Shown piece by piece: positions 35,186 to 50,767 of a stretch of 64,000 bases of DNA. The stretch is from Bacteroidaceae bacterium (GTDB lineage Bacteria; Bacteroidota; Bacteroidia; Bacteroidales; Bacteroidaceae). A program made the position numbers and the translations under genes. A model generated the notes under the pieces. That model was not told the DNA's origin. It did no database searches and saw only the letters and a program-made list of their open reading frames with translations. Location: NCBI GenBank assembly GCA_017541025.1, contig JAFXZY010000005.1, positions 20,666 to 84,665 on the forward strand. Reading direction: 5' to 3'. The number at the start of each line of letters is the position of its first letter. Positions within the stretch are counted from its first letter, which is position 1.

Positions 35186-37363
35186 ATGAAACGTTCTCTT
35201 ATAGTTTTATTGTCTGTCGCAATTTTAGTGGGTTGTACGGAGGATATAGATACATCATCCCGCTATGTTTTCAAAGATAAAACCATTACACAATATCTTG
35301 AAGGCAAAGATTACTATAGCGAATACTTGAATTTGCTGGGTGAGGTACCCGTGAGTGATTTCTCAAAAACCACACTGAAGCAGCTACTCTCGGCACGCGG
35401 TCATTATACGGTGTTTGCTCCAACGAATGATGCTGTACAGGCATATTTGGACTCGCTTTGCAATCAGGGACTTATTACAGAACCGTCATGGGATGGTTTT
35501 ACCAGTCAGAAGGATAAGGACAGTATATGCCGTGTAATTGTATTTAACAGCATTCTGGACAGTGGAGACCAGCAGGCATTTGACATTCTGGATTTTCCAG
35601 ACCATGAGCATGAGTTTGGGCAGGCTAATATGAACGACCGAAAACTTCGGGTTTTCTATGGTACTGAAGATCCTGACAGCATTAGTATAAACGGAACGGC
35701 CTTGGTGAATAAGAAGAATAGGGGTATAACGCTTACTAATGGATATATACATCAGGTGGAGGCTGTAATCGCTCCCAGCAACGATCGGTTGGGCGAGTTC
35801 ATTACCCAATGGTCTCGAACACCAAAAAGCGGTTACAGTGTGATGGCAAAGTTGGTTATGGCCTGTGGACTGGTTGATACATTGAATGCCTTCCGTGATG
35901 ATACATGGGAACGTTTATATCTGACGGGCGGTGTCTTAGATTTACCTAAACATACATCTGTAGGACAAGTCGGAACCATTCCTCAACATCGTTACTATGG
36001 TTTTACACTGTTTGCTGAGACTGATCATTTCTGGGAGAAAACGTTGGGGAAATCGGCTTCTGAGATTGAAGTTAAGGATGTATGTGATTATCTGAAGCAA
36101 AGCGGACTCTTTGACCATGTAGAAGGTACAACATTCGATGATGACCATACTGTTCAGATGAACTACCTAAACCAGTTTGTTACGTACCATCTTATACCTC
36201 AGCGCATAGGTCGTGAGAAGCTGGTGATACATTATAACGAGTTAGGTTATAACTATACGCAGAACAGTGCTCCAACGGTTCCCATCTGTGATTTTTATCA
36301 GACTATGGGCCTGCCTCGTTTAATCAAAACGTATGAGAGTCATGAGAGCAAGGGCATCTACCTGAACCGTTTTCCCGTGCTGAGAAATGGAGTGGGACGG
36401 TTCAGTAAGTCAAGGGAGAATCAGAACGACTATCATGAGAGCGGTGACTTTATGAATCTAAGCGGCTTAGCCACGGCTTCTGATGAAAATCAAGGTGTTA
36501 AAGTGCTTACCTATTCGGAGACCGGAACCGATAATAGCAGCGTGGCTAACGGTATCGTATACCCGATTGAACATTTGCTTTGCTGGTCGGAGAACGTGGT
36601 GAATCAGATGGCTAACCAACGCATCCGAATAGATGCCGGCTGTATGATGCCAGAGTTGATGAACAACGATGTGCGGTCTCATCGTGCCTACTACTCATAT
36701 GGCGCTACTAACTGCCGTGGTATTCCTACCAACTATCCATACATAGAGAATATAGAGATTAAAGATGGTACACTCTTCTATTATCTTCCTGGCTATTTGA
36801 GCAGCTGGCACAATCTTCAGGGCGATGAATACAATATCATCGGCAGGTATGATTTTACCATGAAGTTGCCTCCTGTGCCTCGTGCCGGTCAGTACGAGAT
36901 TCGCTTTGGTGTGGCAACGGGTTCCCGTGTCCGCTCCATGGCTCAGGTTTACTTCGGTTCTGATCCCAGCATGATGCCTGCTGCAGGTATTCCTATGGAC
37001 CTTCGTTTGGGCGGAAAGGAAAAACGTGACGGTTCTATTACCACCGATTCCGGTGTAGGTTGGGAAGAGGATACCGACGATCAGGAACACAATGACGAGG
37101 TTGCTAAGCGCATGAGGGCTAAAGGATTCATGAAAGCCCCCAACTTATGGACCAACTCAATGGGTAGCAGTACATCTATCCGTACCTTCCACTACATGAC
37201 GCGCCGTATTGTGGTTAATACATACATGACTCCTTATCAGAATTATTACATCAGGTTTAAGTCGGTGCTTGACTTGGAAGACCGTGAGTTCTATATGGAC
37301 TATTTCGAGTATGTGGCTAAGGAAGTATATGATAACCCTAACGAACCAGAAGATATTTGGTAA
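35186..37363 (+). CDS. Fasciclin-domain surface lipoprotein
   Basis: A 725-residue lipoprotein (signal LIVLLSVAILVGC, Cys near residue 17, followed by T-E-D). Residues about 35-200 form a FAS1 domain (FSKTTLKQLLSARGHYTVFAPTNDA, ending NGYIHQVEAVI), and a second divergent FAS1-like unit follows at about 205-350 (HRYYGFTLFAETDHFW ... FVTYHLIP). The C-terminal half, about 430-725, is beta-rich with a segment resembling the galactose-binding-like modules of surface glycoproteins (YNIIGRYDFTMKLPPVPRAGQYEIRFG). FAS1 domains mediate adhesion or ligand capture. The next gene starts 16 bases after its stop, so the two form an operon; no SusC/SusD gene is present nearby. Confidence 0.85.
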   Translation: MKRSLIVLLSVAILVGCTEDIDTSSRYVFKDKTITQYLEGKDYYSEYLNLLGEVPVSDFSKTTLKQLLSARGHYTVFAPTNDAVQAYLDSLCNQGLITEPSWDGFTSQKDKDSICRVIVFNSILDSGDQQAFDILDFPDHEHEFGQANMNDRKLRVFYGTEDPDSISINGTALVNKKNRGITLTNGYIHQVEAVIAPSNDRLGEFITQWSRTPKSGYSVMAKLVMACGLVDTLNAFRDDTWERLYLTGGVLDLPKHTSVGQVGTIPQHRYYGFTLFAETDHFWEKTLGKSASEIEVKDVCDYLKQSGLFDHVEGTTFDDDHTVQMNYLNQFVTYHLIPQRIGREKLVIHYNELGYNYTQNSAPTVPICDFYQTMGLPRLIKTYESHESKGIYLNRFPVLRNGVGRFSKSRENQNDYHESGDFMNLSGLATASDENQGVKVLTYSETGTDNSSVANGIVYPIEHLLCWSENVVNQMANQRIRIDAGCMMPELMNNDVRSHRAYYSYGATNCRGIPTNYPYIENIEIKDGTLFYYLPGYLSSWHNLQGDEYNIIGRYDFTMKLPPVPRAGQYEIRFGVATGSRVRSMAQVYFGSDPSMMPAAGIPMDLRLGGKEKRDGSITTDSGVGWEEDTDDQEHNDEVAKRMRAKGFMKAPNLWTNSMGSSTSIRTFHYMTRRIVVNTYMTPYQNYYIRFKSVLDLEDREFYMDYFEYVAKEVYDNPNEPEDIW

Positions 37364-37379
37364 TAAAGAAGAAAAAGAT

Positions 37380-39998
37380 ATGAAAAGGATTTCATTGTTT
37401 ACCCTTCTGTGGGGATTCACTTTTTTATTGTTTGCTCAAGACGTAACGTATAATAAAACGGTTGATGAAATTTGGGGAGGCCGTGTGTTTATGGAACTGA
37501 ATGGCAGATATGCAGGCGTATCACGAAATGATGCTGGTATATCTTGGCCAACCAACGACAAAACGGTGATGGTTTATTGCCTACGAGTGCCCAGGGGACA
37601 CGTAAGGGCAGACGCTATTTTTACCCCAAGAGCAGGTAGAACTGTGACATTTAACCTGAGAGTGGTTCTGGCCAGCACTGGCGAGGTAATAACCGAACAT
37701 ACGTGCTCACTGGCATGTAAGACCGCTACCGAAGAGACGCTTGAGATTCTTCCCGACGTTTCTTTCCCCTCAGATACATGGTACCGTTTTGAGATTACAA
37801 GTCCCAGGGGGAATACCTGTATTTCTCAGTTTACGAAACTAAGATTCCAACGCAAATCTACTCTTGCTGTAGGTGATTCTCCCATCTTTATGGCACCAAG
37901 TGTTCATCTGCATTCATATGCTACAACAGACAAGGACGCTCCTTCTGGCGAATCCTACGACTGGATTTATCAGGAAGGAATGATGCCACCCGAATTTGAA
38001 CGCCCAAGTACATACGCAATGGTAATTGGAATTGATGGCGGGTATTCGGGCTTCCAGTCAATTTATAATAGCAACGGCACTTGGGAACGTCCTATTCTTT
38101 TTTCAATCTGGGATAATGGCGACTTGGACAAAGACCCTGCCATGCCAGAATATCTGAAATCTGGTGTTATAGATAAAGGTCAGGATGTTGTAGGTGTCAG
38201 ATTTGGGTCAGAAGGAACCGGTAGCAGTGCCCGTCTCGTTAACGGCAGCTGGTGGACACCAGGCAAGTGGGTACAGTTCTTGTGGAATGCTCGTCCCGAG
38301 CAGATACAGGTAACGCTAAAGGATCATGAGGGAAATGATTCGGTTGTCAATTATCAGAATACCTTGGTGAGCTGTTGGTATAAGAATGAGGACGACCCTC
38401 AATGGCACTACATGGCTACACTCCGCGAGAGTGGTCGTAGCCATTACTTCACAGGCTTGTACTCCTTTCTGGAGAACTTTTACGATGTGGGCGGCGAATT
38501 GATTCATCGTGCTTATTTCCGTAATTGTGCTATGCGTTCGTTGGCATCAGGTAAATGGTATGCAAGAAATTCGGTCGATTTCGGCCATACTCAAAACGAC
38601 GGCACTCGCTTTTCGCGCAAGGACTATGGGCATGGACTGACTAAGCTTTATGACAACTGTTTCTTTCTACAGACTGGAGGCTTTGGCAATATCCAAGACA
38701 GTGCCAAGGTGCTACCTTTGCCAAAAGAAATGCCTTGGGTTGACACCATAAATATCAAGGCACTTATTGCACGTGTGGATGAAGCCATCCGTGTGGATGA
38801 AGCAGCACAAGCTGCCTCGCGTCTTGACTCATACAGGAAAATTGACATGACAAAATGGACATTGGTTAAGTTCTCTGACGAGGAAACGGAGGGAGAGGGT
38901 GACAATGGCAGGGCTGCTCAAGCAATAGACGGGCTCAGCTCTACGTATTGGCATTCTCAATGGAAACCAACTAAGGCCGCTTTCCCTCATTATCTTATTA
39001 TGGATGCAGGAGAGGAAACCACAGTCACAGGTATCTCGCTATATCAGTCCAGGGAATCGGGGTACAGGGCCAGAATGTACCGTCTTTATACCTCGGAAGA
39101 CGGAAAAACATGGAGAAGCCGTAAATCTGGCTATTTTGCCGATTCCAACAGCCCTGAGGTTGACTTTGGTATGGAGATAACAAGTCGCTATTTTAAGTTG
39201 GACATTTTGTCAAGTTACGGAGGCGATGTGCTTGCCATTAACGAGGTAACGTTTGTCTGTCCTTATAATCTGGATAAGATGAAGAACGGTGCCTGTGAGA
39301 TTATAAATAATGCAGATAGATTAGGTGGTTACAGGTCGGCTGATTTGCAACAACTGATTGATGTGTATGACGATGGTAATTGCACAGATGTGGATGCCTT
39401 GAAGTCAGCCTTTGAAGGATTAATAAATGTAGAACCATTGAAGTATGGTGTAGTAAATAAGTTACAGAATATCAGTACGACACGCTGTTATCAGTTACAC
39501 AATATTTCAAAAAAATCTGTGCTCTATGCTTCGATGCATGGTACAGAAACCCAGATAGTCAAAGATGGAGAAGAGAATGCAATGGATTCTTGTGCTAATT
39601 GGCTTATCTTGCGTTCGGAGGCATACAACCAATATTATATATATAATGTAGGTACCGGTCTTTACCTGAAGGTTGAGGGTGGTAAACTTGTGCAAACAGC
39701 ACAGCCGAAAGCTATCAGTATTTCTTCCGTTGGAAGCGGATACAGGTTTGGTACGTTGTCAGATTCTTATCAGTTGCTGGACAACTACTCAATGGCCCCG
39801 GATATAGATGAAGCATATAATCTGCTTCTTGAGAGTGAGATCTCTCTGCATCCTGAATTACAAACCATCGTAAATACACCTTTAAAACAAGACTTCGATA
39901 CCTTTTACGATTTGGAAGGTCGAAGACTTATGGTTCCCCGTGGATTAGTGATTGTTAAAAGTAGAGATGGTAAAGTTAAGAAAATGTTGGTAAAATAA
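37380..39998 (+). CDS. Large secreted protein with DUF3472, F5/8C module and T9SS-like tail
   Basis: An 872-residue secreted protein. The ATG at 37380 is chosen because it opens a clear signal peptide (FTLLWGFTFLLFAQ) and clears the upstream gene; an open frame upstream from 37269 lies inside that gene. Residues about 35-160 resemble DUF5077 and 160-420 DUF3472 (PTYAMVIGIDGG-like ... GQDVVGVRFGSEGTG ... WVQFLWNARPE), modules seen together in Bacteroidetes glycan-acting proteins. About 485-625 is an F5/8 type C (CBM32-like) carbohydrate-binding domain (AAQAIDGLSSTYWHSQW ... RYFKLDILSS). The end reads FYDLEGRRL...GKVKKMLVK, a variant of the sorting tail. Catalytic activity is not established. 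Confidence 0.8.
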   Translation: MKRISLFTLLWGFTFLLFAQDVTYNKTVDEIWGGRVFMELNGRYAGVSRNDAGISWPTNDKTVMVYCLRVPRGHVRADAIFTPRAGRTVTFNLRVVLASTGEVITEHTCSLACKTATEETLEILPDVSFPSDTWYRFEITSPRGNTCISQFTKLRFQRKSTLAVGDSPIFMAPSVHLHSYATTDKDAPSGESYDWIYQEGMMPPEFERPSTYAMVIGIDGGYSGFQSIYNSNGTWERPILFSIWDNGDLDKDPAMPEYLKSGVIDKGQDVVGVRFGSEGTGSSARLVNGSWWTPGKWVQFLWNARPEQIQVTLKDHEGNDSVVNYQNTLVSCWYKNEDDPQWHYMATLRESGRSHYFTGLYSFLENFYDVGGELIHRAYFRNCAMRSLASGKWYARNSVDFGHTQNDGTRFSRKDYGHGLTKLYDNCFFLQTGGFGNIQDSAKVLPLPKEMPWVDTINIKALIARVDEAIRVDEAAQAASRLDSYRKIDMTKWTLVKFSDEETEGEGDNGRAAQAIDGLSSTYWHSQWKPTKAAFPHYLIMDAGEETTVTGISLYQSRESGYRARMYRLYTSEDGKTWRSRKSGYFADSNSPEVDFGMEITSRYFKLDILSSYGGDVLAINEVTFVCPYNLDKMKNGACEIINNADRLGGYRSADLQQLIDVYDDGNCTDVDALKSAFEGLINVEPLKYGVVNKLQNISTTRCYQLHNISKKSVLYASMHGTETQIVKDGEENAMDSCANWLILRSEAYNQYYIYNVGTGLYLKVEGGKLVQTAQPKAISISSVGSGYRFGTLSDSYQLLDNYSMAPDIDEAYNLLLESEISLHPELQTIVNTPLKQDFDTFYDLEGRRLMVPRGLVIVKSRDGKVKKMLVK

Positions 39999-40068
39999 AC
40001 TATTTGTACCTTTTTCATCTCGGATTTATTAACTAGTATCAATAAAGTTTGAAAAAAAAAACACTTTT

Positions 40069-40100
40069 TTTGGGTGAATAAAATGTTTTGTATAATTTTG
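40069..40100 (+). promoter_or_regulatory. Promoter of the exopolysaccharide-type operon
   Basis: TTTG (40069-40072), 20 bases, TAATTTTG (40093-40100). The predicted start near 40107 gives a leader of about 50 bases before the GTG at 40156. It is the only clear promoter before 48071. Confidence 0.7.
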
Positions 40101-40155
40101 CAGCCGTTTTCAAAATAATTATATATTTTTATCTGTTCAGATTAATATTTAGAAA

Positions 40156-41442
40156 GTGAATAGTGTCTCTATATTAAAATACTATGTTAACTTAATTGCG
40201 GCATATGTCACATATTATTTTAAGTATGGGATAAGTTTGTTTGCTGACTATCCTGCTGAAATTAAAGTCGCTGTTTCTGTTTCGGTATTTAGTATTATTC
40301 TGATCATTATTATGATCACGACAATATTCTACTTATCATATCAGAAAAAAAGAAGAAGAAAACTTGACCGACGTATTGAGAAAAGATTTGGCAGTGGAAT
40401 TGATTTTATGCTTTCGGAAGGTTCTCAAAAACGTATGTCAAGATATGAAATAGCAGATGTTTTTGAAATAGACCGAGAAAATGTTGGTAAGGATCTATTA
40501 AAGAATAATCGTGAAAAGGAAGCGTTCGTTAATTATTTTTATCAACTCTTCATAACGAAAAGATCTAAGTTAGCAAACAGAGATAATATTACCACTTTCC
40601 TATTCTTGTTTGGAATTCCTGAATTTTTGGAGAAAGAAGTAAGCTTGAGAAGTATGGAGAAGAAAGTAAGATATATGAGTATGATTCGTACGTTCAAGTT
40701 ACCTGTCAGCCCTTGGGTTATCAATAAACTTCTCAGTTCCAAATACATACGTGTTCAACGTTTGGCTATGTATTCTAATATCATGCTTAGCTCAGATAGT
40801 GACCTTGATTACTTTGAAACAGACTTCTTTGATAAGTATTGTTGTATCAAGGATGAGATAGAGTTGGCATACTCATTGCAGCGTAGGCGTAAAGCGGGTC
40901 GTAAACTACCTAATCTTGCAAGGTGGGCTAATTTACAGAAGAACGAGCGCTCACAGTGTATGTTTGTGCGTTTGATGAGAAGATTTGATCAGTTGCAATA
41001 TTGTGACCAATTGACGGAACTGTACAAGACTCAGCCGCGAAAGAAAAAACTGATAGAGGAAATCTCACGAACTTGGGGATATCTTAATTATACAGACGGA
41101 GAGGATTTGTTAGTAGATGCTTTGTTGATTCAACCTGATGATACAAAAGTGGCAATTATGCATGCGTTAACTCGTTTTGCTACTGGTAGAAGTCTGGGTG
41201 CTTTGTTGGAAGGATATTATAATACTACTAATCCGCATGTCCGTTTTGAAGCAATCAGATGTCTTTATAACTATGGTGATGAAGGACGTGCAAAGTTCAA
41301 CGAATTGAAACAGAATGCGATGGAAACAGAACAGAAATTGTTTGAATTCTTTGATAATCCCATCACACTTGAGAAGATACGTCTTGACAAGGAGCAGGCC
41401 TACCATTCCTCAGTAGAGACTGTGTATAACAGTTATATATAG
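40156..41442 (+). CDS. Membrane-anchored HEAT-like repeat protein
   Basis: A 428-residue protein starting at GTG 40156; an in-frame stop lies just upstream (40150), so no longer form exists. It has one strong transmembrane helix (about residues 36-62, VAVSVSVFSIILIIIMITTIFYL), a very basic stretch behind it (KKRRRKLDRR) and a long helical cytoplasmic part. The last third has HEAT-like helical pairs (DTKVAIMHALTRFATGRSLGALLEG, NPHVRFEAIRCLYNYGDEG). The glycosyltransferase gene starts 14 bases later. I infer a regulatory or scaffolding partner of the synthase; no catalytic motif is present, and the exact family is not recognised. Confidence 0.75.
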   Translation: MNSVSILKYYVNLIAAYVTYYFKYGISLFADYPAEIKVAVSVSVFSIILIIIMITTIFYLSYQKKRRRKLDRRIEKRFGSGIDFMLSEGSQKRMSRYEIADVFEIDRENVGKDLLKNNREKEAFVNYFYQLFITKRSKLANRDNITTFLFLFGIPEFLEKEVSLRSMEKKVRYMSMIRTFKLPVSPWVINKLLSSKYIRVQRLAMYSNIMLSSDSDLDYFETDFFDKYCCIKDEIELAYSLQRRRKAGRKLPNLARWANLQKNERSQCMFVRLMRRFDQLQYCDQLTELYKTQPRKKKLIEEISRTWGYLNYTDGEDLLVDALLIQPDDTKVAIMHALTRFATGRSLGALLEGYYNTTNPHVRFEAIRCLYNYGDEGRAKFNELKQNAMETEQKLFEFFDNPITLEKIRLDKEQAYHSSVETVYNSYI

Positions 41443-41455
41443 AATTAATACGCCT

Positions 41456-42889
41456 ATGTGGATAGCAATTTATTACATCTTCTGTTATCTGGTATTCGGA
41501 TATACGATGCTGCTTATGCTCAGTTATCTGTATTTGGTATATATGAGTCGCCTTTCGCAAAAACATATCACCGTTAATCTCCCTGATGACGATACCATAA
41601 AATATTTCTTACAAGGTTCACCGCTTACACCGGCCGTGTCTATTATAGCACCTGCTTTCAATGAGGAGGTAACTATTTTGGACAACGTGAATTCGATGAT
41701 GCAGATTGATTATCCCAACTTTGAAATTATTATTGTCAACGATGCCAGTACCGACCGTACCATGGAGTTACTAATCAACGAATACAAATTGGTTGAGGTT
41801 CCTTATGATATTGCCATGAAGGTACAGTCTAAACCCATTAAGCGAGTGTTGAAGTCTACAGATCCAAAATACAGCAAACTGGTCGTTGTGGACAAAGAAC
41901 ATGGAGGAAAGAAAGCTGACGGTTCTAATGCCGGTATCAACGTTTGCAACAATAAATATTTTGTCTGTACCGACGTGGATTGCATCATTGAACCGATGGC
42001 CTTAAATCGTATGATGTGGTTGGTAGTAAACAGCCACAGACCTATGATAGGTGTAGGAGCTACAATGTTGATGAGTAACGGTTGTATTGTGGAAGATGGT
42101 AGAGTTGTGGAGGCTGCCGTACCTAACACATTAATTCCTATGTTTCAGCAAATGGAATATTTACGTTCTTTCCTTATTAGTAAATTGGGATGGTCTGGGA
42201 TTAATGCTTTGCCCAATATTTCCGGTGGATTCGGACTTTTCGATACAGACGTTGCTGTAAAGTCCGGCGGATATGACCCTACCAGTATGGCAGAGGATGT
42301 TGACATGATGCTTAGAATGGTTACATATATGAAGAATACCGGCCAGGACTTCCGTTTGGCTCAAGTTCCACAGGTGTGTTGCTGGACGGAGGGGCCTAGT
42401 ACGATAAAAACTTTGTGCCGCCAGCGTATCAGATGGGCTCGTGGCCTATTTGAGATTGTCTCTAATCACAGAAAGATGTTCTTTAATCCGCACTTTGGAC
42501 CTATTGGGGCTTTTGTATTACCATACATTTTTATTTTCGAGTTCATTGCTCCAGTGTTGGAGATGACGGGTTTCCTGTTTATGATATGGCTGATATTTAC
42601 TGGAGGTGTTAACTGGGATTCTGCAATTCTGCTCTTTGGCATGATTTATGTTTTTTCTGTATTCATGGCTATCTTTGTTTTATTCTGCGATTATTCAACT
42701 AAGGCGGTCAATTGGAGAAATACTAAGATAAGCTATCTTAAATTACTTCTTGTAACTCTGTTGGAACCGTTTATTTATCATCCTATTATTACATATTGCT
42801 CAAATTTGGGTTATTGGCAGTTTATTAGCAATCAGACATCTGTATGGAAACCCATTCAGCGTCGAGGAGTTAAAAAGAAAAAATCATGA
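41456..42889 (+). CDS. Processive family 2 glycosyltransferase (PgaC/BcsA-like synthase)
   Basis: A 477-residue membrane synthase. One N-terminal helix (about 5-28), a cytoplasmic GT-A domain and four C-terminal helices (about 350-440). The motifs of processive polymer synthases are present: VSIIAPAFNEEVTIL near residue 60, the metal/nucleotide motif TDVDC near 172, the acceptor-side MAEDVDMM near 278 and Q-x-x-R-W in RQRIRWARG near 321. These join sugar addition to export through the inner membrane. The polymer is not identifiable; a poly-N-acetylglucosamine or other beta-linked hexose is the analogy. Coupled by ATGA overlap to the next gene, which encodes the likely outer-membrane exporter. 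Confidence 0.9.
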   Translation: MWIAIYYIFCYLVFGYTMLLMLSYLYLVYMSRLSQKHITVNLPDDDTIKYFLQGSPLTPAVSIIAPAFNEEVTILDNVNSMMQIDYPNFEIIIVNDASTDRTMELLINEYKLVEVPYDIAMKVQSKPIKRVLKSTDPKYSKLVVVDKEHGGKKADGSNAGINVCNNKYFVCTDVDCIIEPMALNRMMWLVVNSHRPMIGVGATMLMSNGCIVEDGRVVEAAVPNTLIPMFQQMEYLRSFLISKLGWSGINALPNISGGFGLFDTDVAVKSGGYDPTSMAEDVDMMLRMVTYMKNTGQDFRLAQVPQVCCWTEGPSTIKTLCRQRIRWARGLFEIVSNHRKMFFNPHFGPIGAFVLPYIFIFEFIAPVLEMTGFLFMIWLIFTGGVNWDSAILLFGMIYVFSVFMAIFVLFCDYSTKAVNWRNTKISYLKLLLVTLLEPFIYHPIITYCSNLGYWQFISNQTSVWKPIQRRGVKKKKS

Positions 42890-45669
42890 AAATCAGGTTC
42901 TGTATTATACTTTTATCAATTCTTTCCATGTCGTATTCCCTGTCATATGCTCAGGAAATACCGCATACACCTCGATATTATATTCATCGTGCCGAGGGTT
43001 ATGTAAGTTCCAATGCATGGAATACTGCAAAGCGCGAGATTGATGCAGGATTGAAAGAATATCCGGACGACCCAGATTTGCGTTATCTCAACGGACATTA
43101 TTATTATATCATTGGGGATATGAAAGAGGCTCGTTACAATTTGGTACGAGCTACTCAGACTAATGATTTACATTTTAAGGCCAAACGTATATTGGTTGAC
43201 GTTGAGGACAAACTGGAACACTATTCCAGTGCAATCTGTTACATTAATGAGTTGCTTGAATTTCAGCCATACGATCGTGATCTTTGGCGACGGAAAATCG
43301 GCTTGTACAGAAAACTAAAAAACGATGTTGAAGCTGATGCTGCTTTGACGCGTCTGGCTCACATATATCCTAACGATTCTATTGTTGTAGCTGATGTTAG
43401 AAGGCGTAACCACGAGAATTGGAATAACGTGCTGAAGAAGAGCACCCTCCGTGATGCTGCGGATAATCTGGAGAAATGGATTGACCAAGATCCGAATATG
43501 CGCGAATATTATCTGGAATTGGTAAACACATACGTAAAATTAGGTGAATACGAAAAGGCAATCGGAGCAGCGAATAGAGGACTTCTTAATTTTCCTAATG
43601 ACCCTGAATTAATTAATAAGGTTGTAGGTATTATGACAGACTTAGGTCTCTATACTCAGGCCTTAGCTTTTGTCAAAAGTAAAAATTTAGGTACAAATTT
43701 TTATAATAATCTTCTTCAGGAGGTTGCTGATGATGCCCGCATGCATGACCCTTATGAGGCAAACGGCCGTCTTTATCTTGCTACACATAATCGCGATGCT
43801 TTAAACTATCTGATTAACACTTCACTTACCAGAGGATATTATGATGATGCTCGCCTTTATATTGAGGAAGCCATGAAGTTAGATGGCCGCACCCCTGGTC
43901 TGCTGATGAAACTCTATACTTTGGAAAAAAAATCGGGAAATGAAAAACGCTGTTATAAGATTCTTTCTGAGTTGTATGAACAAAATCCTGAGGACGAAGA
44001 ACTCTCTGAGGCCTATGCCGAAATGATGATGCAACTCTCTGAATATGATTTTAGTACAGAGCAATGGGAGGAAGCCTATCAGCATCTTAGTCGTGTGTTA
44101 GAGTTGCTGCCTGATACGGTTGATTCATGGCCTGCTGCTGTTTCCCGACAGTTAATCGTATTGGGGCATCTGAACCGGCAGGAAGAAGCATATAAACTTT
44201 TTATCAAATCATCTGAGTTGAGTCCCAAGAATCGTCGCAGATTTGCTTCTGCTTATGAGGATTTCGCGGCCAATCGTATAAAATATCTAATCGACGAAGA
44301 ACGTTATGAAGAGGCAATTCATGAAGCAGAGACACTTCTTGAGGTAGTTCCAGGTAGTGAGGTAGCTTTACGTTGTCTGATTAACGTAAATCAGACATTG
44401 AAGCGTGATGAGGAGTTCCGCAGTTATGCTGCAAAGGGGTATGAATTGTATCCCAATACACCGTACTTCGTGGTTAAGCAAGCTGTATCCCTTCAGCAGC
44501 AAGGTAGAGATGTTGATGCTCTGGATTTGCTTTCTCCCCGGAAGCGTTCTGGTAAATTCATTGACCCTCAGATTGTGGCTGCATATTCTGGTCTCAGTCA
44601 TGAATGGGCTAGTCAACTGTTAAAAAATCGCATACCTGACATTGCTATGCAGGTGATAGATTCAGCTTTGGTATTTGATGCTGATAATCGTGACCTACTC
44701 TATGATAAGGGAATAGCCTATGAGTATTTGAAAATGTACCAAAAGGCTTATGAATATCAGAAACGCTACTATAACCCCAGCAATGCAGAACAGGAAGATT
44801 ATTTCCAGCACATGCGTTATCTGGGCTTCAGAGGATGTAGGAACAGGGTGGATGCTTCTTATACCAGCTCTTTCTATGATGCTTATGATGAGACGCTTTC
44901 ATCCATAGCTCACCTTTATTCTCTTGCATCTATTTCTTATTCTCGACTTACTTTGCGTAACACATATACCGGGCAGATAAGCTATAAAGGTATAGATGGC
45001 TATCATATAGCCAAAGAGAATGAGTCGGGTGGACCTGCTTTGGAGTTCATGGCACAATGGGAACATATCTTTAATGCAAAATGGAGCGGAATGGCTAATG
45101 CTTCTGTTTCTACCAAATACTTCAATAGGTTTGGCTTTAATGTGTCTGTATCATATCATGCCCCTAAACGCTGGACACCATCATTACGTGTGGGATACCG
45201 CAGAACACCGCCTACATACCTATATTTAGGTGGTATAAACTGGGGACAGATTGAGAGGAGCGAATACGATTTGTTCCTTATTACACCATCCCTTGAGAAA
45301 TCTTGGGAGCGTTTTAGCTTGACAGGCAATACTGATTTTGCCCTTATGTCTGGCAATTTCTTCTATAACGTCGGACTGAAAGGTAAACTCTATTTCAACA
45401 ATGACAATATATCGTCCGTTTCACTTGTTACAGGTGTTGGTTCATTCCCTGAACTGACATTCTTCGAGCAAACCGCCCTCCGTAATGTATCACATACCAA
45501 TGCCATGGTGGGCTTTGATATACAGTATCTGATTTCACGTCACTTCTGCCTGGGTCTTGCGGGCAATTGGAACACCTATTATAATCCATTTATTAATTCA
45601 GAGGGTATCCTTACCGATTCTTACCGAAATATCTATTCCATAGCACTTCAACTTCATTTAGCTTTTTAA
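42886..45669 (+). CDS. TPR protein with C-terminal outer-membrane barrel (PgaA/YaiO-like exporter)
   Basis: A 927-residue protein with signal peptide (IILLSILSMSYSLSYAQ). Residues about 25-640 are tetratricopeptide-type helical repeats (for example NTAKREIDAGLKEYPDDPDLRYLNGHY, YEKAIGAANRGLLNFPNDPEL); residues about 650-927 are amphipathic strands ending SIALQLHLAF with a terminal phenylalanine, as in YaiO-like barrels. This periplasmic TPR plus barrel plan is that of PgaA, AlgK-AlgE and BcsC, which guide a polymer out of the cell. It overlaps the synthase gene by four bases and precedes a DUF4838-like lipoprotein by two bases. Confidence 0.85.
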   Translation: MKIRFCIILLSILSMSYSLSYAQEIPHTPRYYIHRAEGYVSSNAWNTAKREIDAGLKEYPDDPDLRYLNGHYYYIIGDMKEARYNLVRATQTNDLHFKAKRILVDVEDKLEHYSSAICYINELLEFQPYDRDLWRRKIGLYRKLKNDVEADAALTRLAHIYPNDSIVVADVRRRNHENWNNVLKKSTLRDAADNLEKWIDQDPNMREYYLELVNTYVKLGEYEKAIGAANRGLLNFPNDPELINKVVGIMTDLGLYTQALAFVKSKNLGTNFYNNLLQEVADDARMHDPYEANGRLYLATHNRDALNYLINTSLTRGYYDDARLYIEEAMKLDGRTPGLLMKLYTLEKKSGNEKRCYKILSELYEQNPEDEELSEAYAEMMMQLSEYDFSTEQWEEAYQHLSRVLELLPDTVDSWPAAVSRQLIVLGHLNRQEEAYKLFIKSSELSPKNRRRFASAYEDFAANRIKYLIDEERYEEAIHEAETLLEVVPGSEVALRCLINVNQTLKRDEEFRSYAAKGYELYPNTPYFVVKQAVSLQQQGRDVDALDLLSPRKRSGKFIDPQIVAAYSGLSHEWASQLLKNRIPDIAMQVIDSALVFDADNRDLLYDKGIAYEYLKMYQKAYEYQKRYYNPSNAEQEDYFQHMRYLGFRGCRNRVDASYTSSFYDAYDETLSSIAHLYSLASISYSRLTLRNTYTGQISYKGIDGYHIAKENESGGPALEFMAQWEHIFNAKWSGMANASVSTKYFNRFGFNVSVSYHAPKRWTPSLRVGYRRTPPTYLYLGGINWGQIERSEYDLFLITPSLEKSWERFSLTGNTDFALMSGNFFYNVGLKGKLYFNNDNISSVSLVTGVGSFPELTFFEQTALRNVSHTNAMVGFDIQYLISRHFCLGLAGNWNTYYNPFINSEGILTDSYRNIYSIALQLHLAF

Positions 45670-45671
45670 CC

Positions 45672-47420
45672 ATGAAAACTATTGTATCTTCACATAGGAT
45701 GATAAAGCATTGCATAAAAGGCATAATGCTTTTCTCTGCAATGTTACTTGTTGGCTGTACCGAGAAAAATCAGTCCATAGGTACATCTTCGTTTGATTAC
45801 CGCGAGGTCTATCTACCAGAGTTAACCAGCGATGTATATATACCGTTGAGTCTTAACTGTATAGACCGTGACTGGGGTATTTGGGGACACAATCTCTCTG
45901 TAGTACTTCCCGAGAAACCTTCTTCCAGCGTTTTTGCCAAGAGTGGTAGTGGTGTGGACCATAGCCAATTATGCTTCACGTCCGATGCGCTGTATAAATA
46001 CATCTGTAAATTTATAAAGGATAATTACAGAAAGGGTGACCCTATGCGTTTTGCTATCCTTCCTAATGATAATAATGTAGTTTGCCTGTGTAACCGTTGT
46101 GTAAAAGCTGGTAATACAGAGGAAGATGCTTCTGGGGCCGTTTACTATATGTTGGAACGTTTAGCTAATGAATTCCCCAAGCATTTCTTTTTTGCCTCTT
46201 ATTATAGGACCACATGCAGTCTTCCTAAGGAACCGCTTCCTGATAATGCCGGAATTCTTATCAGTGCTATTGACTTCCCACTTTCTACTTCCTATACAGC
46301 CCAAGAAGCTGACTTTTTGGACTTGCTGAATCAATGGTCTTCTTATACAAAACATGTTTACGTATGGGACTATATCAACAATTTCGATGACTATTTTACT
46401 CCTTTCCCCATTCTCTGTATCTTCCAGCATCGTCTCCGTTTATATGCTGAGGCTGGCGTAAAAGGAATCTTTTTGAACGGAAGCGGTCATGATTATAGCA
46501 CTTTATACGGACTTAAGATACATGTCATGGCGTTATTGCTTTCTAATCCTGATGCTGATTGGCGTCCAAAGCTGAGGGAGTTCTGTAGGAAGTATTATCC
46601 TGTGACGGGCGATGTTCTGTGCGACTTCGTGGTTAAGCAAGAAAATATGGTGGAGAAACAGGGAGATATACTTTCATTATATGAAGGCGTTCCAAAAGCA
46701 GTTAAGACTTATCTTCCCGCTGAAGATTTCATCAAATTTCACAACAAGCTCATTTCTCTTTTGCCAAAAACCAAGGACAGAGAACATCAGAGTATCGAGA
46801 AATTGTGCCGAGCTTTAATGTTCACCCACCTGGAACTGAATCGTATGGCTTCTGATACTATAGGATGTAAATGGATGCTTGATGAATTTGAGAAACTCAA
46901 CGATATTGACATTGTTGCATATAGCGAAGCCGGCGGAACTATTGATAACTACGTGGCTGATTACCGATATATGCTTCGTAAGGCTGATGAGACATGGGGA
47001 AAGAACTTATTGAAAGGTGTCAGACTGACACCATTGACAGCCTTAGACGAGGATTATAATGATATATCTATCCTCACTGACGGTCTCTTGGGTATTCCTT
47101 CATGTTACCATAGTGGACATATGCTCTCATCAGCATCTTCTGCACTACGCATTTCCATTCCTAATATTCATGGAATGAAACGCTTACGAGTTAATATGAC
47201 AAAGAATTCTATTTATCATATTGAATTCCCCCTCAATGTATCGCTCTCATGTGGTGGACATATAATAGGTAGTGTTGAGCCCGTTTCCATTCCTGGTAAT
47301 ATTCATAGGGCTGTTGCAGATTTTGATATCCCATCTTTTTGTAAGGATGCACTCATACTCTCTGTATATAGAGACCAGTCGGAACGAACCATGGCATTAG
47401 ATGAGATAGAAGGATTTTAG
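45672..47420 (+). CDS. DUF4838-like lipoprotein of the exopolysaccharide operon
   Basis: A 582-residue lipoprotein (lipobox LLVGC, Cys near residue 29). The body resembles DUF4838, a TIM-barrel-like domain related to glycosidases: a cysteine cluster VCLCNRCVKAG near residue 140, YYMLERLANEFPKHFFFASYY near 160, VYVWDYINNFDDYF near 235 and GVKGIFLNGSGHDYS near 265. The last 120 residues are beta-rich. In pga systems PgaB, also a lipoprotein, deacetylates and cleaves the nascent polymer; this protein sits in the same place and may modify or trim the chain, but catalytic residues are not assigned. It starts two bases after the exporter gene. Confidence 0.7.
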   Translation: MKTIVSSHRMIKHCIKGIMLFSAMLLVGCTEKNQSIGTSSFDYREVYLPELTSDVYIPLSLNCIDRDWGIWGHNLSVVLPEKPSSSVFAKSGSGVDHSQLCFTSDALYKYICKFIKDNYRKGDPMRFAILPNDNNVVCLCNRCVKAGNTEEDASGAVYYMLERLANEFPKHFFFASYYRTTCSLPKEPLPDNAGILISAIDFPLSTSYTAQEADFLDLLNQWSSYTKHVYVWDYINNFDDYFTPFPILCIFQHRLRLYAEAGVKGIFLNGSGHDYSTLYGLKIHVMALLLSNPDADWRPKLREFCRKYYPVTGDVLCDFVVKQENMVEKQGDILSLYEGVPKAVKTYLPAEDFIKFHNKLISLLPKTKDREHQSIEKLCRALMFTHLELNRMASDTIGCKWMLDEFEKLNDIDIVAYSEAGGTIDNYVADYRYMLRKADETWGKNLLKGVRLTPLTALDEDYNDISILTDGLLGIPSCYHSGHMLSSASSALRISIPNIHGMKRLRVNMTKNSIYHIEFPLNVSLSCGGHIIGSVEPVSIPGNIHRAVADFDIPSFCKDALILSVYRDQSERTMALDEIEGF

Positions 47421-47477
47421 GTGTCTTTTTTCTGTGATTTTTGAAGTTTAATAATATATTTAATAAAAACATTATTA

Positions 47478-48071
47478 GTGAGAACAAATAAGCATCATAT
47501 ATTGCAAATGCTAAAGTTTATGGGGTTTATTGCTTCAATGTGCTTTTTGTATTCGTGCGAAAAACAATTGAAGCCTGCTAGTTTTATTCTAGTGGACCCT
47601 GTAAGACATTATTATCCTGTAATTCAAGGTGAAATGATGTCTATTAGCTACGAATTAGAGAATACATCTGATAACCCGCTTTTTATTCAGGAGGTGCAGA
47701 CAACATGCGGATGTCTTGTTCCGAGAGATGAGCTTCCCATTGTAGTGCTTCCTCATAAGATTGGTTTTATTGATCTTACCTTTAACACTATTAAGAATAC
47801 TGGGTATGTAAGTCATTACATATACTGTTATGGCAATTTCCAAGATTCTACTTGCATTGAAATGTCCTTTGACACGAATGTCGTTCCTCGTGCCGATTAT
47901 GTAAGAGATTATGAACAGTTATGGCATGAACAGACTGATGGTATGAAGTCAATGCGTGATTTTGTTGATGGCATGCCAGGACAGAAAGGTTATTATACTG
48001 AAACTGGTATCTCTCCGCGTACTACACGTAAAGAAGCCGTACAGGAAGAAGTGGATGAAGTAGCTCCGTAA
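47478..48071 (+). CDS. DUF1573 lipoprotein
   Basis: A 197-residue lipoprotein (FLYSC lipobox). The start is GTG 47478, but ATG 47508 would also give a signal peptide, so the first ten residues are uncertain. Residues about 35-135 form an Ig-like DUF1573 domain with the typical YELENTSDNPLFIQEVQTTCGC and later FIDLTFNTIKNTGYVSHYIYCYGN; the TTCGC motif is characteristic. The acidic C-terminus (QEEVDEVAP) is probably flexible. DUF1573 proteins are common in Bacteroidetes and of unknown role. It is 57 bases after the DUF4838-like gene, the last member of the operon, and is followed by a terminator. Confidence 0.85.
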   Translation: MRTNKHHILQMLKFMGFIASMCFLYSCEKQLKPASFILVDPVRHYYPVIQGEMMSISYELENTSDNPLFIQEVQTTCGCLVPRDELPIVVLPHKIGFIDLTFNTIKNTGYVSHYIYCYGNFQDSTCIEMSFDTNVVPRADYVRDYEQLWHEQTDGMKSMRDFVDGMPGQKGYYTETGISPRTTRKEAVQEEVDEVAP

Positions 48072-48083
48072 TAAAATCTAATC

Positions 48084-48119
48084 AAAAAGCCTTTCTGCCT
48101 CACCGTTGAGAGGCTTTTT
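48084..48119. terminator. Terminator after the exopolysaccharide operon
   Basis: AAAAAGCCT (48084-48092) pairs with AGGCTTTTT (48111-48119). The T-run on the plus strand ends the operon; the A-run on the other side makes it workable in both directions. Confidence 0.8.
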
Positions 48120-48215
48120 ATATGTCTGCTGCTGTCTACATTACTGTTTTCATTTTTCTGACTAAATAGAAGAAAAAGGAAGAGGCAGATGTTTTAAGTG
48201 CCTTTTATGATATGC

Positions 48216-48265
48216 AAAAAAACTGGCCCGAGCCAATGTCCTATTTGGCTCGAGCCAGCTTTTTT
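48216..48265. terminator. Strong bidirectional hairpin
   Basis: CTGGCCCGAGCCAA (48223-48236) pairs with TTGGCTCGAGCCAG (48245-48258) with one mismatch, flanked by A7 before and T6 after (48260-48265). It is a second terminator 100 bases beyond the first with no gene between them; either a back-up or the end of a short RNA. Confidence 0.6.
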
Positions 48266-48303
48266 ATGGTCTTTTAGTGACGAAAAAATCTCATCACCCA
48301 CTA

Positions 48304-48339
48304 AAAAGAGGATGTGGCAAAATTGTAATATCCTCTTTT
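48304..48339 (-). terminator. Terminator of the metalloprotease gene
   Basis: AAAAGAGGAT (48304-48313) and ATCCTCTTTT (48330-48339) form a 10-pair stem five bases after the stop at 48344; the minus strand ends in a T-run. Confidence 0.75.
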
Positions 48340-48343
48340 CTTA

Positions 48344-50767
48344 TTACTTCCAAACCAGCAGACGTCCTATCTGGTCGTAGATGCTTGACCAGTGAGCACG
48401 GCTTTCAGCATCGGGAGCAGAAGTAGAAGCTGTCTTTGATTTCTTCTGTAGTTGCTGCAGAGTATAAAGAACTGCAGGATGTATCTTCTGGTTCCCATTT
48501 CCAAAGGCGCGGCTCAGATGGAAGAGCATGTTGTTTTGCAGGGCAATACGATAGGGAGTAACTTTTTTGTTGTTGTCTAACTCCGTAAATACAAGCTTGC
48601 TCAAATCTGTAAGATACTGCTGAGGATTATACAAGTTGTTCAGCGCGTCCAAACGGTTCATCAGTCCAGTTACTGCACTTTCGCCAATAGAGTTGGTTAG
48701 GGATTGTGGGTCTGTGGTAAGACGCTTAGCATAGGATACTTCACGCAACCAAATGGGTTCGTGCAGGAATTGCTCGTCAATAAACTTCAGTGCAGCCTTC
48801 TGCTTGCTGAGTGGTTGGGGGTCATAAACATCTCCACCCATGCCTTGTGTCTTAGGCTCTACCAAATAGCCTCCAATGTTACGGGTTACATGCCCACAGT
48901 ATCGCATCAGTTGGGTGCGAATCTGGTTGTACATGGTTCTAATGTTTTCATCGTAGATATCTTTCTCGTCATCAAGTGTATAACGACGCAGGTTATCAGC
49001 CAGACGTTTTAGATTCATAATACCGTAGTAGCTGGCCTTAACAGGGTCATCACCTAAGTCTTCTGTCTGACGGCGTGGGTCTATATATATGCCTTCGCCA
49101 TCTCCCCACCATAGACGGCGGTTCTTGAGTGACTCTAAAACCATAGGCTCCAACATCTTATGATCCTGCAATTCGTTCTGAGCATCCAGCATGGGCTTGT
49201 ATCCCCATGTGATGGCCCACTTGTCATAATCTCCAATGCGGGGGAAGATACCTATGCGCGATACTCCATCTTCAGGCTGTGCCACGTAGTTAAAACGGGC
49301 ATAGTCCATAATGCTGGGGGTGTGGCCGTGTGCCTCCACCCATGCCTTGTTGCGCAGGCTATCTACAGGTACGGTACTTGAACTTCCGAAGTTGTGACGC
49401 AGGCCCAAAGTGTGACCTACTTCATGTGAACTGACAAATCGGATAAGCTGACCCATCAATTCTTCATCGTAGTTCATCTTCTGAGCAGCCTCATCAATGG
49501 AACTTGCCTGAATCATATACCAGTCATGTACCAATGCCATTACATTATGATACCAACAGATGTGACTTTCTATGATTTCGCCTGTTCTTGGGTCGTGAAC
49601 ATTGGGACCATAAGCGTTTTCGATGGGGCTAGCCAGATATCGGATACAGCTGAATCGGGCATCTTCCATGCTCATTGTCGAGTCGTTCTCAGGCCATTCT
49701 TCAGTTCTGATAGCGTTCTTGAATCCGGCTTTCTCGAAGGCAGCCTGCCAGTCGTTTACACCCATAATCAAATACTTACGCCATTGCTTAGGTGTTGCAG
49801 GGTCTATGTAGTAAACTATAGGCTTGATGGGTTCTACCAGTTCACCACGACGCATCTTCTCAACATCTTCTGGACGAGGCTCCAAGCACCAGCGCGTAAT
49901 AAAAGTCTTACTTTCCACACGTTGCTGATCATCAGTATAGCTGGTAAAGCGGTCGGTAAAGAAACCTACACGTGGGTCGTAATATCTACGCATCATTGGC
50001 TTCTCGGGTAAGAGTACAAAGCTGATGTTTAGTCCGATGGTAACCTTTCCCGTATATCTGGCAGAGGGTAGGGCTGTGCCATTGGTGGCAAATGTCTTAA
50101 CAGTGCGAACCTCTGTATTCATAGGGAACGATTTAATGTCTTCTATGTAACTCATATCGGGTATCAAACCCTGAAGTTCATATTGTTTCTTGGCGTTCTG
50201 GGGCAATGCTATTGCTGCGTTGTCCTGGTTGAAGAACTGCGTAACCTTGATTTTGTATTTCCCATCTTTGTGGCTCTCTATTTTGAATGAACCTATGATA
50301 GGATTCTCGTTGCTGATGGTAATGGCACGACTAATGTTGTCTGTACTATCTGCAACATTAATAATAAGGTTTGCGCGTAAAAGAAGCTGTTCATCAACAC
50401 CTTTCTGGAAATATACGGTTTGTTCGTTTACTTGCTCTCCTCCGAATTTGCCGCTTCCTGCAGGCGTACTGGTGAATCGTGTGGTAGTTAAAAACTGCCT
50501 ACCTAAGAGGCTGTCGGGAATATGAAAGAACCAGTCATTCTTTTCCTTTGTTACATGAAAAATGCCGTCCCTGTCTATAGATGGCTTCTCAACTTTAACG
50601 GTGTCTTTAGGCGATGCCTCAGGCTGTCCTTTCTTACTTTTCTTACTTGGCTTCTTGGGCTGTGTTGTTTGCTCAGTCTTGGCTTTCTCTTTCTTTTCCC
50701 TTGCCATTGCTGGTATCGTAGTCAGCAATGATGCAGCAAACAAGATGCTTAATACTTTAATGTTCAT
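48344..50767 (-). CDS. Zinc-dependent metalloprotease (DUF5117/DUF4953 type)
   Basis: An 807-residue exported metallopeptidase. A signal peptide (LFAASLLTTIPAMA) is followed by a Lys-rich linker (residues 23-60), an N-terminal DUF5117/5118-like beta region and the metzincin zinc motif HEVGHTLGLRH at H448, E449, H452, H458; the Met-turn region SIMDYARF follows. The C-terminal part (about 520-807) is DUF4953-like. Such proteins are frequent in Bacteroidetes but poorly characterised; the substrate may be a cell-surface or host protein. It stands alone, between its own terminator (48304-48339) and a -7 box at 50810-50817. Confidence 0.9.
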   Translation of the reverse strand: MNIKVLSILFAASLLTTIPAMAREKKEKAKTEQTTQPKKPSKKSKKGQPEASPKDTVKVEKPSIDRDGIFHVTKEKNDWFFHIPDSLLGRQFLTTTRFTSTPAGSGKFGGEQVNEQTVYFQKGVDEQLLLRANLIINVADSTDNISRAITISNENPIIGSFKIESHKDGKYKIKVTQFFNQDNAAIALPQNAKKQYELQGLIPDMSYIEDIKSFPMNTEVRTVKTFATNGTALPSARYTGKVTIGLNISFVLLPEKPMMRRYYDPRVGFFTDRFTSYTDDQQRVESKTFITRWCLEPRPEDVEKMRRGELVEPIKPIVYYIDPATPKQWRKYLIMGVNDWQAAFEKAGFKNAIRTEEWPENDSTMSMEDARFSCIRYLASPIENAYGPNVHDPRTGEIIESHICWYHNVMALVHDWYMIQASSIDEAAQKMNYDEELMGQLIRFVSSHEVGHTLGLRHNFGSSSTVPVDSLRNKAWVEAHGHTPSIMDYARFNYVAQPEDGVSRIGIFPRIGDYDKWAITWGYKPMLDAQNELQDHKMLEPMVLESLKNRRLWWGDGEGIYIDPRRQTEDLGDDPVKASYYGIMNLKRLADNLRRYTLDDEKDIYDENIRTMYNQIRTQLMRYCGHVTRNIGGYLVEPKTQGMGGDVYDPQPLSKQKAALKFIDEQFLHEPIWLREVSYAKRLTTDPQSLTNSIGESAVTGLMNRLDALNNLYNPQQYLTDLSKLVFTELDNNKKVTPYRIALQNNMLFHLSRAFGNGNQKIHPAVLYTLQQLQKKSKTASTSAPDAESRAHWSSIYDQIGRLLVWK

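Follow-up and report, generated by a model that had tools for sequence, protein, structure and literature searches.

The window, by which we mean the whole 64,000-nucleotide stretch of Bacteroidaceae DNA analyzed here, belongs to contig 53 of a draft genome (3.28 Mb, 83.85% complete). We examine in it a cassette of five co-directional open reading frames (ORFs) that an initial annotation, made from the sequence alone, had described as a synthase-dependent exopolysaccharide operon. The genes encode a HEAT-repeat protein, a family 2 glycosyltransferase (GT2), a tetratricopeptide-repeat (TPR) protein ending in a barrel, a DUF4838 protein and a DUF1573 protein, and all five were found where that annotation had placed them. 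The features are as follows.

40069-40100, + strand: match to the Bacteroidales-type promoter TTTG-N20-TAnnTTTG (sequence TTTG-N20-TAATTTTG)
40156-41442, + strand: HEAT-repeat gene, 428 amino acids, GTG start
41456-42889, + strand: GT2 gene, 477 amino acids
42886-45669, + strand: TPR/barrel gene, 927 amino acids; signal peptide, TPR solenoid at about 29-650 and C-terminal YaiO-related barrel at about 653-926
45672-47420, + strand: DUF4838 (GH163-like) gene, 582 amino acids; predicted glycosidase fold (TIM barrel) followed by a beta-sandwich at the C terminus; lipobox LVGC by inspection
47478-48071, + strand: DUF1573 gene, 197 amino acids; lipoprotein by inspection
48097-48114, + strand: terminator-like hairpin with a T tail, 3' of the last stop codon

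Successive genes are joined by a 13-nt gap, a 4-nt overlap (ATGA), a 2-nt gap and a 57-nt gap; the overlap and the 2-nt gap are the tight joints that had been claimed. The promoter proposed at 40069-40100 does match the Bacteroidales consensus, which occurs eight times in the window against a mean of 0.92 in shuffled sequence. The other seven matches lie elsewhere, one of them inside the TPR-barrel gene on the opposite strand. Terminator-like hairpins were found at eight sites in the region with 5.2 expected, and a sigma-70 scan was uninformative, with no more sites than chance would give (31 found, 29.3 expected). Support for an operon therefore comes mainly from conserved synteny. Pfam gave GT2, TPR, DUF4838 and DUF1573 matches among the cassette proteins of the window.

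Conservation and distribution

Loci were fetched for all strong TPR-barrel matches (E <=1e-40) in the samples of the family, the class and a second family of the class, and for six relatives found through the GT2, and their ORFs were scored by blastp and custom profiles; 12 further genomes of the genus have a TPR-barrel gene outside the fetched loci. With the window included, 38 loci were counted. The complete cassette, HEAT-GT2-TPR/barrel-DUF4838-DUF1573 in the same order and on one strand, is present in 29 of these 38, which is not a count of independent events, L071-L075 being close relatives of the window. The complete loci are the window, L051, L054, L056, L057, L059-L063, L071-L075 (the DUF1573 gene of L074 was located by tblastn), L085-L087 and L134-L144. 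Six more are interrupted by contig ends (L052, L053, L055, L058, L076 and L146), and three (L088, L145 and L147) have no DUF1573 match. In these last three a receiver-type protein is encoded directly upstream of the HEAT gene, as seen by Pfam in L088 and by sequence inspection in L145 and L147. DUF4838 follows the TPR-barrel gene in 36/36 loci whose contigs extend that far. The five genes clearly co-occur in related genomes; a lack of such co-occurrence would have told against the initial annotation.

The wide spread of the cassette is a stronger argument for its conservation than the number of loci. It occurs in families of the same order and in families of the same class outside that order, and the lowest identities within the alignments are 16% for HEAT, 25% for DUF1573, 27% for the TPR-barrel protein and 30% for DUF4838. 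Within the genus, 13 of 61 genomes have a strong TPR-barrel match; the corresponding figures are 13 of 121 for the family, 7 of 395 for the class, 16 of 201 for another family in that class, and 5 of 395 for the phylum, these five all belonging to the class. The samples overlap, and the genome of the window is in every one except that of the other family. The family tally of 24 genomes includes 11 weak TPR-only matches, which are excluded from the 13 of 121. On these tallies the cassette is a patchily distributed accessory system. The six relatives found through the GT2 are metagenome-assembled genomes (four Bacteroidaceae, one Bacteroidales and one Prevotella), and at least four of them come from rumen or reticulum.

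Some loci depart from the common form. Two tandem GT2 genes lie between HEAT and the TPR-barrel gene in L145, L146 and L147, where a receiver-like gene precedes HEAT, and a copolymer product might follow from such a pair. The TPR-barrel gene is broken into two ORFs in L138, L142 and L053, which could be due to decay, a phase-variable frameshift or sequencing error. Genome G694 has two complete, divergent cassettes (L140 and L144).

The synthase and its HEAT partner

Synthase-dependent exopolysaccharide systems combine a processive GT2, periplasmic TPRs with an outer-membrane barrel and a periplasmic polymer-modifying enzyme, and their polymer is secreted. The GT2 of the window has the motifs noted initially, TDVD (172), AEDVD (279) and QRIRW (323), and its hydropathy shows C-terminal hydrophobic segments. 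QxxRW is found in 19/19 cassette GT2s, in 11/11 GT2s of the tree set that come from sister Bacteroidales loci (loci with TPR-YaiO, HEAT and GT2 genes), and also in PgaC, BcsA and NfrB. YaiP, WcaA, WcaE and another GT2 of the same genome, L002, do not have the motif. All 18 scanned GT2 members match the PgaC_IcaA family, and PgaC/IcaA is the nearest named family of the window GT2. A tree of 37 rows, built with a quick method, places the 19 cassette GT2s on one side of a branch with an SH-aLRT (approximate likelihood-ratio test) value of 100. PgaC, BcsA, NfrB, YaiP and WcaA have very long branches in this tree, and it does not resolve the nearest known synthase. Clustering of the GT2 with single-transfer enzymes, which would have told against the initial annotation, was not seen: in the tree the cassette GT2s form a group of their own, and the distinction from single-transfer enzymes is based mainly on QxxRW, which WcaA, WcaE and the L002 GT2 lack. 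Motifs and hydropathy together support a membrane-embedded GT2 of the processive type, the first component of a synthase-dependent system.

In the HEAT protein a single, strongly hydrophobic segment (about 36-54) precedes a basic cluster, after which the repeat region begins; from the positive-inside rule we infer an inner-membrane protein with its N terminus outside and its C terminus inside. HEAT_2 scores 22.8 on the window protein, under its cut-off of 27.7; of the 14 proteins in the family alignment, 11 match it (E <=0.01), the best with an E of 1.9e-11. Profiles also place a HEAT gene beside the GT2 in 9 of the 13 sister loci (L064-L070, L089 and L090; not L091-L094), so pairing of HEAT with GT2 extends beyond the cassette. 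The suggestion that the HEAT partner belongs to none of the known sets needs correcting in one respect: the partner is not unique to the cassette but a recurrent neighbor of the GT2 in the sister loci. In the comparison with pga, it is present where no PgaD match was found.

These sister loci are 13 of the 16 non-cassette GT2 places, all but the two of G133 and the second of G244. A TPR-YaiO protein was present in 4/4 loci scanned with Pfam, HEAT_2 was above its cut-off in 3/3 scanned, and their GT2s are some of the closest to the cassette clade in the tree. They differ from the cassette in that the TPR-YaiO protein is separate and shorter, and there is no DUF4838 or DUF1573 profile match in the stretches fetched for the 13 loci. 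A response regulator lies upstream in L065, the only one checked for it.

The TPR-barrel protein

An AlphaFold2 model of the TPR-barrel protein (mean local confidence, pLDDT, 84.0; predicted template-modeling score, pTM, 0.50) has a TPR superhelix and a barrel, with 14 strands counted from the DSSP list of the model. Families and predicted structure agree in bearing out the initial reading of this protein as TPRs plus an outer-membrane barrel, and the model supports a second component of synthase-dependent systems, a periplasmic TPR domain with a predicted outer-membrane barrel. Of the 50 matches listed by Foldseek for the whole protein, most are proteins with TPRs or other helical repeats and none is a named polysaccharide exporter.

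The barrel is related to the YaiO family, as seen through its relatives. Pfam YaiO (PF19413) is matched by 8 of 17 full-length members, and 9 of 10 isolated barrels score above its cut-off, the exception being the window's own. When the barrel profile was aligned with a six-row YaiO profile using hhalign, the probability was 97.5 (E 5e-12, 215 columns), against an E of 0.19 for the reversed YaiO profile, at least 0.088 for eight column shuffles, and 0.33 for YaiO against the reversed barrel. PgaA, BcsC and NfrA were tried as relatives and rejected, with single-sequence hhalign probabilities of 3.3, 0.1 and 0.2, respectively; these are weak negatives, since E. coli YaiO failed as a single sequence too. 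A PgaA/BcsC-like character is not supported by these alignments. The plan that had been likened to pga, alg and bcs is therefore retained in the kind of its parts (synthase, TPR, barrel and glycosidase-fold lipoprotein), but with a YaiO-related barrel it is better called a YaiO-type plan.

The DUF4838 and DUF1573 proteins

The DUF4838 protein scores 112 bits on PF16126 (cut-off 26.6) and the DUF1573 protein 46.3 bits on Pfam (cut-off 26.1), the latter as initially annotated. Structure prediction of the DUF4838 protein, another of the checks proposed, gave a TIM-barrel fold that resembles GH115, GH84 and GH20 glycosidases at low TM-scores. DUF4838 has been labelled GH163 in print, and GH163 members have been described as endo-beta-N-acetylglucosaminidases. 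The cassette proteins are 17-22% identical to 11 canonical members (the 13 canonical matches less L101, whose gene has an internal stop, and L108, which lies at a contig end), with which they have a common core of H73, Q99, D133, C140/C143, Y178 and WDY. The canonical members have glutamate at positions 201 (E in 10, D in 1), 277 (E in 9, D in 1, N in 1) and 280 (E in 10, D in 1). In the cassette proteins these glutamates are changed, an N-F-D-D-Y motif is gained, and the gene is located in a synthase operon. Among 33 cassette sequences, which include near copies and one shortened protein (L061), D133, D233, H73, Q99, Y178 and W232 are invariant, and new acids appear at D239 (32/33) and D240 (D in 28, E in 1). 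A wider DUF4838 profile (A5) matched the PDB mostly in the C-terminal sandwich and in an N-terminal domain absent from the window protein (four alignments), so no catalytic residue could be transferred from GH84 or GH20. The view that this lipoprotein is foreign to the known sets needs qualification: it is absent from the pga parts, yet it belongs to a known family, GH163 in print, with a changed active site.

The same genome encodes a second, canonical DUF4838 protein (328 bits) at L095 (G000 contig 57: 35298-36296).

Comparison with known systems

One of the closest known systems is pgaABCD of E. coli, which makes poly-N-acetylglucosamine (PNAG). The likeness is in a GT2 nearest to PgaC/IcaA, a TPR-plus-barrel exporter and a periplasmic protein of glycosidase fold. 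The cassette differs in having a HEAT partner, a YaiO-related barrel, and DUF4838 instead of the PgaB hydrolase, and family scans listed neither a deacetylase family nor PgaD for its five proteins. The bcs system has a PilZ-bearing BcsA, BcsB and the GH8 enzyme BcsZ; the scans listed no PilZ, BcsB or GH8 family for the five proteins either. The E. coli yaiO-yaiX-yaiP-yaiS cluster also encodes a YaiO barrel near a GT2, but E. coli YaiO, at 257 amino acids, is too short for a TPR solenoid of the size in the cassette, YaiP lacks QxxRW, and no HEAT or DUF4838 is annotated there. NfrA/NfrB, which provide the phage N4 receptor polysaccharide, likewise pair a QxxRW GT2 with a large outer-membrane partner, whereas one NfrA sequence had no hhalign similarity to the cassette barrel, which is a weak test. 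NfrB makes a secreted exopolysaccharide, according to a passage of PMC8669469. A passage of PMC9384988 states that a TPR protein associated with the outer membrane is encoded in every one of four operons, those for PNAG, alginate, cellulose and Pel. By family tests, then, the cassette is similar to pga/bcs-type systems in kind of parts and is not a member of them.

No description of the cassette was found among the papers listed from the open-access literature searched, most subscription journals being outside that search. The main text of PMC7112194, on synthase-dependent operons, has no word starting with Bacteroid, Flavobacter, HEAT, YaiO or Prevotella, and one paper of the literature searched, PMC9870897, has the word DUF4838. 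As far as we have seen, the cassette is a conserved and previously uncharacterized form of synthase-dependent polysaccharide export.

Other genes of the window

Immediately upstream of the cassette (35186-39998) lie genes for a fasciclin-domain protein and a DUF3472/F5-8C/ricin-like protein. By blastp among the first set of loci, both are upstream in L071-L074 and fasciclin alone in L075; they flank the cassette only in these loci and were rejected as members of the system. Elsewhere, Omp85-family and TamB genes adjoin each other (25513-32549), and a GH43 enzyme is encoded beside a protein in which Pfam finds the alginate-lyase domain PF05426 (469-3990).

A proposed polysaccharide secretion system

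We suggest, with a probability of roughly 0.7, that the cassette encodes synthase-dependent secretion of a polysaccharide by a YaiO-type system, with a GH163-like lipoprotein to process the chain. The GT2, placed in the inner membrane by its motifs and hydropathy, would polymerize a nucleotide sugar and hand the chain to the periplasm. Adjacency and topology point to the HEAT protein as a cytoplasm-facing partner that may assemble or switch the synthase. The TPR solenoid would convey the chain to its own outer-membrane barrel, a path suggested by the family relation and the predicted fold. The DUF4838 lipoprotein, a putative GH163-like enzyme with a remodeled pocket, could trim, clear or hold the nascent chain, in a role analogous to that of the PgaB hydrolase domain on PNAG; DUF1573 would be an accessory lipoprotein. 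That PgaB has a hydrolase domain is stated in a passage of PMC5933820. Our guess at the most likely product, from the nearness to PgaC/IcaA and the GH163/GH84/GH20 context, is a beta-linked polymer with an amino sugar.

Several observations weigh against this proposal. The window GT2 reaches 99.4 bits on PgaC_IcaA, far below the cut-off of 422.3, and its eight sequence matches in the PDB (E <=0.01) are all short N-terminal stretches of other glycosyltransferases, so the donor sugar cannot be read from the GT2. The window's own barrel does not match YaiO (PF19413), and the E. coli YaiO sequence aligned with the barrel at an hhalign probability of 0.2. The barrel profile even matched its own reverse (probability 75.8, E 2.3e-5, 59 columns); barrel patterns alone can thus give moderately low E-values, and the direct Pfam YaiO matches are firmer evidence than the profile alignment. 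Foldseek TM-scores of the DUF4838 model to glycosidases are only about 0.3 of the query, the window sequence had no match in the PDB, and the family profile found nothing there below E 0.22. Finally, none of the 33 cassette DUF4838 sequences has an acid at position 277, and glutamate at 201 is kept in 2 (with aspartate in 18), while 280 is aspartate in 24. As the canonical glutamates are not kept, hydrolysis is at most a putative activity.

These changed positions are what makes it conceivable, if rather unlikely, that the export machine is the same but the DUF4838 protein is a pseudo-enzyme, which binds the polymer and holds or guides the chain without cutting it. The invariant H73, Q99, D133, Y178, W232 and D233, the new acids at D239 and D240, and the aspartate that over half of the sequences keep at positions 201 and 280 make a pattern more like remodeling than decay. 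A quite improbable alternative is that the glycan built by the GT2 stays attached to the cell, linked to a lipid or lipoprotein and with DUF1573 or the barrel serving as its acceptor or anchor, and is not a released exopolysaccharide. The operon has two predicted lipoproteins, no released product is known, and among the listed papers that name YaiO or YaiP no title or abstract opening gives a function for YaiO; however, TPRs, a barrel and a processive GT2 are the layout of free-polymer exporters, and the four operons named in PMC9384988 each have such a TPR protein.

Glycan scavenging, with the DUF4838 protein as a catabolic endo-N-acetylglucosaminidase and the GT2 as a chance neighbor, is in our opinion highly improbable. 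It would be in keeping with the characterized B. theta GH163, which acts on host N-glycans according to part of a review, but no SusC/SusD-type family was found among the eight proteins scanned at 35186-50767, DUF4838 invariably follows the TPR-barrel gene in the loci reached, and the cassette pocket differs from the canonical one. 

Published expression data also concern a GT2 and a DUF4838 gene. When Polaribacter dokdonensis MED152 was grown with Micromonas, MED152_03905 (GT2) was up 8.8-fold and MED152_03915 (DUF4838/GH163) 18.5-fold, and the section of PMC9870897 that reports them gives both as separate carbohydrate-active enzymes (CAZymes) outside polysaccharide utilization loci, unlinked to each other, a listing that would fit the scavenging view. 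With protein accessions ending in 551 and 553, the two probably flank a single gene, at the expected place of the TPR-barrel gene. This pair is probably the same cassette, an identity drawn from locus-tag and protein numbering, which is itself a caution for our proposal. If so, the algal co-culture response could be read as biosynthesis and not scavenging.

Beyond the proposed secretion system as such, we tentatively raise a further possibility, to which we give somewhat less than even odds: that the cassette is a distinct, undescribed polysaccharide secretion class in Bacteroidota, in which a processive synthase with a HEAT partner supplies a TPR-YaiO channel in the outer membrane, and a GH163-derived enzyme, with N-F-D-D-Y as a new active-site motif, has evolved to cut the polymer of the cell itself and not food glycans. 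The series from YaiO-HEAT-GT2 through receiver-HEAT-GT2-GT2-TPR/barrel-DUF4838 to HEAT-GT2-TPR/barrel-DUF4838-DUF1573 would then record its assembly. If true, YaiO barrels would gain a polymer-exporter function and DUF4838 a biosynthetic role.

Bacteroidota are abundant in the rumen, the gut and the sea and, to our knowledge, the mapping of their secreted matrix polymers lags well behind that of the proteobacterial pga, alg, bcs and pel systems. For the barrel and DUF4838 families, to which little or no function has been assigned, the cassette could supply one. As a conserved operon that joins a YaiO-type channel to a HEAT partner and a GH163-like enzyme, it is a concrete target for polymer discovery.

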